A stretch of 64,000 nt of DNA from Blattabacterium cuenoti (lineage in GTDB: Bacteria; Bacteroidota; Bacteroidia; Flavobacteriales; Blattabacteriaceae), in assembly GCF_014251735.1 (NCBI RefSeq), contig NZ_CP059197.1, positions 486,501-550,500 of the forward strand, read 5' to 3'. The notes beneath the pieces were generated by a model. That model saw only the letters and a program-made list of their open reading frames with translations. It did not search any database and had not been told where the DNA came from. The position numbers and the translations under genes were made by a program. Of the stretch, positions 38,389 to 41,598 are shown piece by piece (within the stretch, counting starts at the first letter, position 1; each line of letters begins with the position of its first letter).

Positions 38389-40461
38389 ATGCGACAAAGA
38401 ATAATTAAATTAGCTCTTATTGGAAATCCAAATGTCGGAAAAACTTCTTTGTTTAATCAACTAACTGGACTAAACCAAAAAGTTGGAAATTATTTAGGAG
38501 TCACAGTAGATAAAAAAATCGGATTTTTTTATTATAAAAATATACACTATCAGATAATAGATCTTCCAGGAACCTATAGCATATATCCATCATCTGAAGA
38601 TGAGGAAATAGTTTGTAAACTACTAAACAATATAGATGATATTGATTATCCAGATAAAATTATGGTTGTAGCTGACTCCTCGAATATTAAAAAAAGTCTT
38701 TTATTATTCAGACAGATACAAGATTTAGGTTTTCCTGTTCTCTTTATCTTGAATATGCTTGATGAAGCAAAAAAAAAGGGAGTTTTCATTGATCTAGAAA
38801 AACTTAAAAAACTTCTTATAACTGAAATCGTCTTAATCGATGCAAGAAAAGGAATAGGAATAGAGAATGTCAAACATACAATCAGTAGTCTGAACAATAA
38901 AAAAAATAAATTATCCTTCTTCTTTAATCCAGGATTATCTCATTCCATCGCTATTCAAGATGTCAAGGATGGTTATCATGTGAACTCTTATAGAGCTTGG
39001 TCTTATTTAGCAAATAATAAAAAATTCTTAAAAGATGATGGACTTTTGAATAAAATTAAGAAAAAACATAATATCATTTCTAAAAAATTACAAATCATAG
39101 AAACATTAGATAGATATGAAGAAATAGGAAAAATTTTTTCTAAAACAGTTTCTAAATTTATTTCAGATCAGAAAAAAAATTCTTTAGATTTTTCTAAAAA
39201 GATAGATAATTATTTATTATTACATCCTTTTTGGGGTTATTTCATTTTCTTTTTCTTGTTGTTTATTATATTTCAAAGTGTCTTTTTTTGGGCAGAAACT
39301 CCTAAAAAAATTATAGAATTTTTTTTTTCCATTCTTCAAAAAAAACTAGAAAATATTTATCCAGGTCCCATCAACAATTTTTTTGTACAAGGGTTTTTAC
39401 CTGGAATTAGTACGATCATCACTTTTATTCCACAAATTTTTCTTTTATTATTTTTTCTTCTTCTTATGGAAGAAAGTGGTTATATAAGCAGAGTGATATT
39501 TTTAATGGATAGAATTATGCGTCCATTTGGATTAAATGGAAAAAGTGTAGTTCCTCTTATTTCTAGCGTAGCCTGTGCTATCCCTGCAATAATGTCTGCT
39601 AGACATATTGAAAACTATAGAGATCGTTTAATCACCATTTTAGTAACTCCTTTTATCACATGTTCTGCTCGATTACCTGTTTACATATTAATAATTTCTC
39701 TCATCATTCCGGATAAAAAATGGTATTTCATTCAGTTGAGAGGATTGGTACTTATGGGGATGTACCTTTTAGGTTTCTTTTCTGCTTTAAGTATATCCAT
39801 GATTCTTCATCTATTTCTTAAAAAAGATTATCAAAGTCATCTTATTATGGAAATGCCTACTTATAAATATCCCATATTCGGGAATATATTGATTACTCTA
39901 TGGATAAATATCAAATCTTTCATGTATAACGCGGGAAAAATAATTGTATTATTAAGTGTATTAATTTGGGTTTTAGGATCTTTTGGTCCAAAAAAAGATA
40001 TTATTCCATACAGGAAATATTCTATTAGTTTTGAAAACATATTTGAAAAAAAAAAATTACCTAATTCTTATTTGGGTTTACTAGGAAAGAAAATGGAACC
40101 ATTTATTCTTCCATTAGGATATGATTGGAAAATAGGAATAGGATTAATCTCTTCTCTTGTAGCAAGAGAAGTATTTGTTAGTACTATGGCTTCTGTATAT
40201 AGTATAGAAAAAAATGGAAATTTTTTATTAAAAGAAAAAATGAAAAAAGAAATATTCTATGATACAGGAAAACCGGTTTACAATTTGGCTACAGGATTTT
40301 CTTTGCTCTTTTTCTATGCTTTTTCTATGCAATGTCTAAGTACCTTATCTATAGTAAAAAAAGAGACAAAGTCTTGGAAGTGGCCCATAATACAATTCTT
40401 TTTTATGACCACATTGGCTTATAGTTCTTCTTTTTTCATTTATCAAATATTAAAAACCTAA
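38389..40461 (+). CDS. feoB: Ferrous iron transporter FeoB
   Basis: GTP-binding inner-membrane Fe(II) permease, 690 residues. The G domain (1-165) has G1 GNPNVGKTS, G3 DLPGTYS and G4 NMLDEA. A helical GDI region follows, then about eight to ten membrane segments with the Gate motifs (FLMDRIMRPFGLNGKS, SVACAIPAIMSAR, TPFITCSARLPVY). It is somewhat shorter than the usual 700-770. An A11 tract (40046-40056) lies in the frame. The tiny Cys-rich gene begins 3 bases after its stop. Confidence 0.95.
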   Translation: MRQRIIKLALIGNPNVGKTSLFNQLTGLNQKVGNYLGVTVDKKIGFFYYKNIHYQIIDLPGTYSIYPSSEDEEIVCKLLNNIDDIDYPDKIMVVADSSNIKKSLLLFRQIQDLGFPVLFILNMLDEAKKKGVFIDLEKLKKLLITEIVLIDARKGIGIENVKHTISSLNNKKNKLSFFFNPGLSHSIAIQDVKDGYHVNSYRAWSYLANNKKFLKDDGLLNKIKKKHNIISKKLQIIETLDRYEEIGKIFSKTVSKFISDQKKNSLDFSKKIDNYLLLHPFWGYFIFFFLLFIIFQSVFFWAETPKKIIEFFFSILQKKLENIYPGPINNFFVQGFLPGISTIITFIPQIFLLLFFLLLMEESGYISRVIFLMDRIMRPFGLNGKSVVPLISSVACAIPAIMSARHIENYRDRLITILVTPFITCSARLPVYILIISLIIPDKKWYFIQLRGLVLMGMYLLGFFSALSISMILHLFLKKDYQSHLIMEMPTYKYPIFGNILITLWINIKSFMYNAGKIIVLLSVLIWVLGSFGPKKDIIPYRKYSISFENIFEKKKLPNSYLGLLGKKMEPFILPLGYDWKIGIGLISSLVAREVFVSTMASVYSIEKNGNFLLKEKMKKEIFYDTGKPVYNLATGFSLLFFYAFSMQCLSTLSIVKKETKSWKWPIIQFFFMTTLAYSSSFFIYQILKT

Positions 40462-40464
40462 AAT

Positions 40465-40602
40465 GTGAATGTGCAGTATATTATTATTGGTTTATTTTTT
40501 TTGTATTCCATATTTTATTTTATCAAAAATTTATTAAAATTTTTCTCTACTAAAACTAGTAGTCTTTGTAAAAAGAAATGTAAATGTAATTGTAGATTAT
40601 AA
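40465..40602 (+). CDS. FeoB-associated Cys-rich membrane peptide
   Basis: A 45-residue frame directly after feoB, too short for routine gene calling. It reads from a GTG at 40465 (or 40471): MNVQYIIIGLFFLYSIF starts a membrane segment to about residue 25. A basic tail ends with CKKKCKCNC near residues 35-43. This matches the layout of the FeoB-associated Cys-rich family, found after feoB in other phyla: one membrane helix plus a C-terminal Cys cluster likely to bind iron. An ATG at 40463 is followed at once by a stop. The end overlaps ddl by 6 bases. Confidence 0.75.
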   Translation: MNVQYIIIGLFFLYSIFYFIKNLLKFFSTKTSSLCKKKCKCNCRL

Positions 40603-41598
40603 ATTTTTTTTCTTGAAAGATTCAATAGAATCGTATATATTCTTTTTAAATAACTCAGATAAAGATATCCCAGCTATTCTCAATTGTTTGGGAAGTATAC
40701 TTTCTTCCGAAAGTCCAGGAATTGTATTAATTTCTAAAAAAAAAGGATCTCCGTTTACCAGTATATATTCCGATCTAGATATAGATGATAAATTTAAAAT
40801 TTCATAAACTTTTTTTGCCAATTTTTGTATCTTTTTTTCAATACTTGGTAATAATCTAGCAGGTGTTATTTCTTGAGACTTTCCAGAATACTTCGATTCA
40901 AAATCGAAGAAATCATTTCTACTGATAATTTCTGTAATAGGCAAAACTTTAATTTCCTGATTCCATGAAATCACTCCTACTGAAACTTCAGTTCCTTTTA
41001 GAAATGATTCTACAATAATTTCTTGATCTTTTTTAAAAGCATGTTCTATCGCATGTGATAATTCTTTTTCTTGATATACTTTAGATATACCTAAACTAGA
41101 TCCGGATCTATTAGGTTTTACAAAACATGGTAATCCTACTTTTTTTATAATTTCTTTTTCACAAAAAAATTGGTTTTTATTTAAAAAAAAGGAATGAGCT
41201 GTTTTGATACCAAATTCTTTCAAGAAGGTTAAACAATATTTTTTATTAAAAGTGATACTGGCATGATGAAAATGACATCCTGTATAGGGGATTCTTAGTA
41301 AATGAAAATAAGCTTGTAAAACTCCGTCTTCTCCTGGAGTTCCATGTATAGCATTAAAAACACAATCAAATTTCAAAATTTGATCATTTGTAATACAAAC
41401 GGTAAAATCATGTTTATTTACAGGGTACTCTTTATTATTTTTATCCTTTAGAATCCATTTATCTATGAATAAATAGATTTTATAAACTTCAAATTCTTCT
41501 TGTTCTTTACTTAAATTTTTGTAAACGACTTCTCCACTTTTTAACGAAATAACAGATTCCTCTGTATAACCTCCCATCACAACAGCTATTTTTTTCAT
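40597..41598 (-). CDS. ddl: D-alanine--D-alanine ligase
   Basis: ATP-grasp enzyme that makes the D-Ala-D-Ala dipeptide of peptidoglycan. The 333 residues include MGGYTEESVISLKSG, AIHGTPGEDGVLQAY, LPCFVKPNRSGSSLG, VESFLKGTEVSVG, and FLEINTIPGLSEESILP with the Mg ligands Glu and Asn. It is divergent from the PASTA-rluD pair, the same grouping as in other Flavobacteriia. Its 3' end overlaps the Feo peptide by 6 bases. Confidence 0.96.
   Translation of the reverse strand: MKKIAVVMGGYTEESVISLKSGEVVYKNLSKEQEEFEVYKIYLFIDKWILKDKNNKEYPVNKHDFTVCITNDQILKFDCVFNAIHGTPGEDGVLQAYFHLLRIPYTGCHFHHASITFNKKYCLTFLKEFGIKTAHSFFLNKNQFFCEKEIIKKVGLPCFVKPNRSGSSLGISKVYQEKELSHAIEHAFKKDQEIIVESFLKGTEVSVGVISWNQEIKVLPITEIISRNDFFDFESKYSGKSQEITPARLLPSIEKKIQKLAKKVYEILNLSSISRSEYILVNGDPFFLEINTIPGLSEESILPKQLRIAGISLSELFKKNIYDSIESFKKKNL

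Follow-up and report, generated by a model that had tools for sequence, protein, structure and literature searches.

Comparative support for a Cys-rich FeoB-associated membrane peptide with a non-ATG start in Blattabacterium cuenoti

In Escherichia coli, the gene for the small protein FeoC is encoded after feoB, the gene of the ferrous iron permease. In a 2022 survey of Feo evolution (PMC8749426), FeoC, the gammaproteobacterial partner of FeoB, appears as a small Feo accessory protein with a C-terminal cysteine motif of the form Cx2-7C, and accessory Feo proteins are called cytoplasmic. The same survey describes FeoB-associated Cys-rich frames as prevalent in Firmicutes and Bacteroidetes, mentions that the same cysteine element forms the C-terminal domain of FeoB itself in some species, leaves open whether FeoC and the FeoB-associated Cys-rich peptides are related, and gives the translation of these frames into functional peptides as an unanswered question. 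Members of the FeoB-associated family (PF12669) stand directly after feoB and have some 40-60 residues, with one N-terminal helix, a basic linker and a C-terminal Cx3-5CxC cluster. Their function is called unknown in two papers (PMC8980893, PMC10669500). As regards expression, two other studies report lower mRNA for one FeoB-associated peptide in a Bizionia regulator mutant (PMC9478572) and a 1.8-fold increase of another in Porphyromonas gingivalis W83 under iron depletion (PMC10434189). No literature on a FeoB-associated peptide in Blattabacterium was found by title or by the start of the abstract, a scope that mostly excludes subscription journals.

The window described here is the whole stretch of DNA that was analysed, 64,000 nucleotides of Blattabacterium cuenoti (assembly GCF_014251735.1, contig NZ_CP059197.1, positions 486,501 to 550,500 of the forward strand), and its source genome is a single contig of 642,499 bases. 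The features of interest follow each other in the order feoA, feoB, a short peptide frame and a convergent gene (Table 1), the latter of which we take, as in the first-pass annotation of the window, to be ddl (D-alanine--D-alanine ligase). That annotation had proposed an open GTG frame between feoB and ddl that encodes one membrane helix and a C-terminal CKKKCKCNC cluster, and the frame, the helix and the cluster are all found. The frame runs from the GTG at 40465 to a TAA stop at 40600-40602 (45 residues, VNVQYIIIGLFFLYSIFYFIKNLLKFFSTKTSSLCKKKCKCNCRL), begins after a gap of 3 bases from the end of feoB, with which it is in phase here, and overlaps the minus-strand ddl by 6 bases. Its product contains one hydrophobic segment (best 19-residue span from residue 6, mean Kyte-Doolittle 1.98), which AlphaFold2 models as part of one helix, residues 3-34, followed by a low-confidence tail (mean pLDDT 75.3, pTM 0.45). 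The tail carries four cysteines, at residues 35, 39, 41 and 43, with the spacing Cx3CxCxC.

Table 1. Coordinates of the feo locus and of the features of the peptide frame in the window
Feature	Position	Strand	Evidence and remarks
feoA, 74 aa	38153..38377	+	TTG start; PF04023 E 4.9e-16
feoB, 690 aa, ferrous iron permease	38389..40461	+	TIGR00437 468.5 bits vs cut-off 315.65; PF02421, PF07670, PF07664
Cys-rich one-helix peptide gene, 45 aa	40465..40602	+	GTG start; homologues after feoB in 49/49 genomes; omega 0.241
Five bases (AATGT) that G020 and G045 lack	40468..40472	+	Upstream sequences compared by eye; placement ambiguous
Codons 6-24, hydrophobic core of the single predicted membrane helix	40480..40536	+	Hydropathy; AlphaFold2 helix 3-34
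Cysteine cluster CKKKCKCNC, residues 35-43	40567..40593	+	Cys39 invariant and Cys35 at least 90% conserved in the 46-row alignment A1
ddl, convergent	40597..41598	-	Open frame; right-hand anchor in 49/49 genomes

In its place directly after feoB, its length, its one N-terminal helix, its basic linker and its cysteine cluster, the window peptide resembles the FeoB-associated family. It differs in the tail, which is lysine-rich and of the CKKK type, whereas FeoB-associated peptides elsewhere have glycine and acidic residues there; a fourth cysteine, present in the clade of the window, and the GTG start of the window itself are further differences. With FeoC, as described in the survey referred to above (PMC8749426), the peptide shares small size and a C-terminal cysteine motif, but it consists of a predicted membrane helix and a short tail, with no Pfam match. 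Compared with the Cys-rich C-terminal extension of some FeoB proteins, the element is here a separate frame, which occupies all three phases relative to feoB across the genus.

The conservation of this frame was followed in 49 Blattabacterium genomes. A search with the 45-residue peptide as query (E<=10) matched 48 of them, several weakly, and the homologous frame of the remaining one (G009), missed by the search, was found by reading its feoB-ddl interval. Anchored by feoB and ddl, the intervals of all 49 genomes were read in three frames, and every one of them has a homologous frame immediately behind feoB. The permease gene itself was found in all 49 genomes; 47 copies are free of internal stops, and two (G016 and G023) are broken. 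In the 46 genomes in which the peptide frame is not shifted, the product has 36-55 residues, most often 41, and the majority form of these 46 rows is MWQYIIIGLFFLYSIxxLxKKxLNFFxxKKNFCKKKCNCKL, in which Cys39 and Phe12 are invariant and Tyr5, Ile8, Ser15, Phe27 and Cys35 are at least 90% conserved. Conservation of all four cysteines had been suggested beforehand as a check, and it holds for a core of three: CxxxCxC is present in 37 of the 49 genomes and missing from 12, the shorter CxxxC is present in 42 and missing from seven, and only the window and its two nearest relatives (G020 and G045) have a cysteine where C43 stands. Measured from the feoB stop, the peptide starts fall no further than about 25 bases to either side, and they occupy all three phases relative to feoB. 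This pattern agrees with termination-reinitiation and tells against read-through as the source of a conserved fusion. The peptide would be translated independently right behind feoB, and termination-reinitiation is the probable route because the starts lie so close to that stop in all three frames. Read-through of the feoB stop, giving FeoB a fused tail, was considered and rejected on account of the same spread of phases across the genus.

Selection on the frame was estimated with a one-ratio codon model (46 taxa, 41 codons) on a tree built from part of feoB plus ddl; both this test and the alignment A1 comprise 46 rows, the three frameshifted genomes (G023, G027 and G041) being left out. The omega of the peptide frame is 0.241, and the comparison with an omega of 1 gives a 2 delta lnL of 158.3. 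Used as controls, the shifted sense frames gave 0.71 and 2.36 and the antisense frames 0.86, 0.41 and 3.61; the antisense frame with 0.41 has a 2 delta lnL of 51, which indicates that part of the selection signal depends on codon-frame bias. The sense frame nevertheless shows by far the strongest constraint signal of the six. The constraint on it is weaker than that on feoB (0.12 for 42 random codons and also for the last 42 codons) and on ddl (0.06 for 42 random codons). A purifying dN/dS, the other check proposed in advance, was obtained. With this selection and a homologous frame in all 49 genomes, the open frame represents a real gene.

One might still suppose that no protein is made from the interval, which would then be an AT-rich spacer, open by chance and conserved because the end of feoB carries DNA or RNA signals. 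The interval is indeed short and AT-rich, and many frames of 30-50 codons lie nearby in all frames. Such a spacer would have to account for the omega of the sense frame, for the profile homology to feoB-adjacent peptides elsewhere (see below), and for the fact that the frame is kept in 46 of the 49 genomes despite its varying phase relative to feoB and its varying distance to ddl. We regard this explanation as already disfavoured and as very improbable.

The start codon tells a different story for the window and for the genus. Near the aligned start, ATG is found in 44 of the 49 genomes and GTG in one, that of the window; the other four (G015, G022, G029 and G038) have none of ATG, GTG or TTG there. 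ATT codons are present instead, in G022 at the aligned position itself and in the others a few codons upstream. The GTG start is lineage-specific, the window genome standing alone with it among the 49, and the claim of a non-ATG start is thus right for the window and does not describe the genus. The five extra bases of the window fall just after the ATG used by G020 and G045. Because of them, the ATG at 40463-40465 is no longer in frame, and the in-frame GTG codons left as starts are those at 40465 and 40471, 3 and 9 bases past the feoB stop.

These five bases could also mean that the gene, functional in the rest of the genus, is decaying in the lineage of the window, with the ATG destroyed and the GTG frame a remnant that has stayed open because the loss is recent. 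The ATG is lost only in the window among the three closest genomes. Counted from Gln4 on and with the stop codon aside, the codon differences are 4 nonsynonymous to 3 synonymous against G020 and 5 to 1 against G045, so that nonsynonymous changes prevail and no constraint is visible within this clade, the counts being too small to show it. The frameshifts in three of the 49 genomes, moreover, show that the gene can break. However, the window frame is open from end to end with all four cysteines present, it retains the two in-frame GTG codons close behind feoB, and both feoA and feoB of the window genome are open and match their families. A non-ATG start is also normal at the feo locus, given that feoA has a TTG at the aligned position in 46 of the 49 genomes (ATG in G044, and no aligned start in G029 or in the main frame of the damaged copy of G023); a non-ATG start seems to be the conserved state for feoA in Blattabacterium. 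We consider decay in the window lineage unlikely. It is compatible with the explanation that we prefer for the rest of the genus, namely a third functional gene of the feo locus, and the odds given to the different readings do not sum to one.

Frameshifts or stops in close relatives had been named by the first-pass annotation as the observation that would speak against the gene, and three of the 49 copies are indeed frameshifted, before or inside the cysteine cluster, whereas 46 are not. By eye, G041 and G027 are shifted upstream of the cluster, in a stretch of homopolymer runs, and their cysteine codons persist in another frame; the shift of G023 lies inside the cluster. The feo locus of G023 (L099) is decayed as a whole, with feoA damaged, feoB in pieces with stops and the peptide tail frameshifted; judging from these remains, it is the one genome that has clearly lost Feo, and the peptide tail is broken there too, a single case. 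A frameshifted feoB beside an intact peptide is found in G016 (L187), where the comparison with G017 reveals one base missing in a T run, plus one 3-base gap. This shift may represent a recent pseudogene or a sequencing error, and single-base frameshift cases may in general be due to sequencing error.

The relationship to the described family does not emerge from direct searches. The window protein alone has no Pfam match at E<=10, and a match to the NCBIfam model MSC_0882 (16.5 bits, cut-off 60), shared by six of the 46 members, was read as hydrophobic noise and rejected. Among the genus members, seven of 46 match PF12669 (FeoB_associated) at E<=10, the best with an E of 0.006, which must lie well under the 27-bit cut-off, and 21 of 46 match DUF6587 (best E 0.0069); FeoC is absent from the 18 families matched by any of the 46. 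When PF12669 was searched in 198 relatives, the window genome was unmatched and no genus genome came over the cut-off, and the six-frame search with this family listed the correct place in one genus genome, G015, with 14.3 bits (cut-off 27). Matches below the cut-off appeared in 13 of 14 control genomes as well, so that such scores prove nothing alone.

Profile-profile comparison gives a clearer picture. Aligned with hhalign to 33 FeoB-adjacent peptides of other Bacteroidota, hand-chosen from a set of 77 loci, A1 obtained a probability of 97.8, an E of 7.7e-13 and a score of 55.85. This score was not reached by any of 150 shuffles of the columns inside the helix and tail blocks (maximum 26.5), of 150 shuffles of the helix only (maximum 32.7) or of 100 shuffles of the tail only (maximum 55.6); the last of these come near the real score, which indicates that the helix pattern carries most of the profile signal. 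The positional association is seen in relatives as well. Of the 30 PF12669 loci fetched there, 27 are preceded by a FeoB match at a distance of no more than 400 bases, and a helix-plus-Cys frame occurs in the 400 bases behind 44 of 47 FeoB loci found by sequence (mostly Aquimarina, and including L110, itself Blattabacterium). The other three (L113, L141 and L154) have no such frame within the 400 bases after feoB, the stretch of L113 ending after 369. On the grounds of position, layout and profile homology, we assign the window peptide, as a divergent relative, to the known and functionally unexplained FeoB-associated family, despite its failing the Pfam threshold. The family layout that had been claimed for it is borne out on these three grounds, while Pfam does not match the window protein and the NCBIfam match is far below its cut-off. 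Taken together with the genus conservation and the purifying selection, the position and the profile-profile homology support a Cys-rich FeoB-associated membrane peptide which, in the window, would have a non-ATG start.

With the A1 profile as query, 48 of 296 Bacteroidota genomes gave a match at E<=0.1, the window's own included. The best non-self match (G199, L158, E 7.0e-5) is found 35 bases downstream of a FeoB match, and the PF12669 score of its peptide is 26.9 bits, against a cut-off of 27. Three of the 29 non-self loci that were fetched (L158, L173 and L185) follow a FeoB match, and most of the others look like chance hydrophobic stretches. The second-best non-self match (L159, E 1.4e-4) has no FeoB match in the fetched stretch.

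A few one-helix Cys-rich peptides were seen near opposite-strand radical SAM/SPASM genes, at L159 (1486-1692), L162 (1501-1680) and L166 (near 1501), where a FeoB match was not found in the fetched stretch. The radical SAM neighbour of L159 is an incomplete frame with a Radical_SAM score below the cut-off, and the PF12669 score of the L162 peptide is 23 bits (cut-off 27). This neighbourhood is a possible second context for the peptide type, which, given these three loci outside feo, would not be exclusive to feo.

These three loci bear on whether the Blattabacterium peptide is tied to feo by position only and has some other metal or redox task, such as cytosolic metal buffering or the maturation of Fe-S enzymes. 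Related peptides away from FeoB would be in keeping with such a task, and so would the intact peptide beside the frameshifted feoB of G016. On the other hand, a place behind feoB is common to every one of the 49 Blattabacterium copies and to 27 of the 30 PF12669 loci that were fetched, and the G016 shift is one base in a T run, which may be recent or erroneous. We find a task apart from FeoB improbable.

The orientation of the peptide in the membrane can be predicted from its charges. Over the 46 peptides, the mean net charge is -0.15 for the first four residues and +7.3 beyond residue 19. According to the positive-inside rule, a near-neutral N terminus with a strongly positive charge after the helix predicts an N-out, C-in topology, in which the cysteines would face the cytosol beside the mouth of FeoB. 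With good confidence, we propose that the feo operon has this frame as its third gene, probably transcribed together with feoA and feoB, and that the frame encodes an N-out one-helix subunit with a cytosolic Lys/Cys tail beside FeoB in ferrous iron uptake. The peptide would be a bitopic inner-membrane protein, its N terminus outside and its Lys-rich CxxxCxC tail in the cytosol, and would most likely associate with FeoB in the membrane. Where the iron leaves FeoB on the cytosolic side, its cysteines may bind Fe2+ or, alternatively, a redox or Fe-S centre. There, the peptide could accept the iron and hand it on, or it could hold FeoB active and stable.

Beyond this proposal, we entertain as a doubtful possibility that in these reduced genomes Feo requires the peptide as a third subunit, whose translation has become independent of an ATG of its own, with reinitiation on near-cognate codons (GTG in the window; ATT in G015, G022, G029 and G038) and with homopolymer slippage tolerating the frameshifts of G027 and G041. 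That the peptide is functional is argued by the fact that all 49 genomes of this genus of obligate cockroach endosymbionts (about 0.5-0.64 Mb) have kept it, together with the purifying selection, and this suggests a minimal bacterial ferrous iron importer made up of FeoA, FeoB and the peptide.

As to how the family is delimited, the curated model (PF12669) misses the divergent Blattabacterium copies. A further cysteine spacing ascribed to the family is absent from the window peptide (Cx3CxCxC) and also from the three-cysteine peptide of L063, and is not treated here as defining. The core CxxxCxC is found as well in loci that score over the PF12669 cut-off, as in L063, where it reads CGPDCGC, the corresponding stretch of the window being CKKKCKC.
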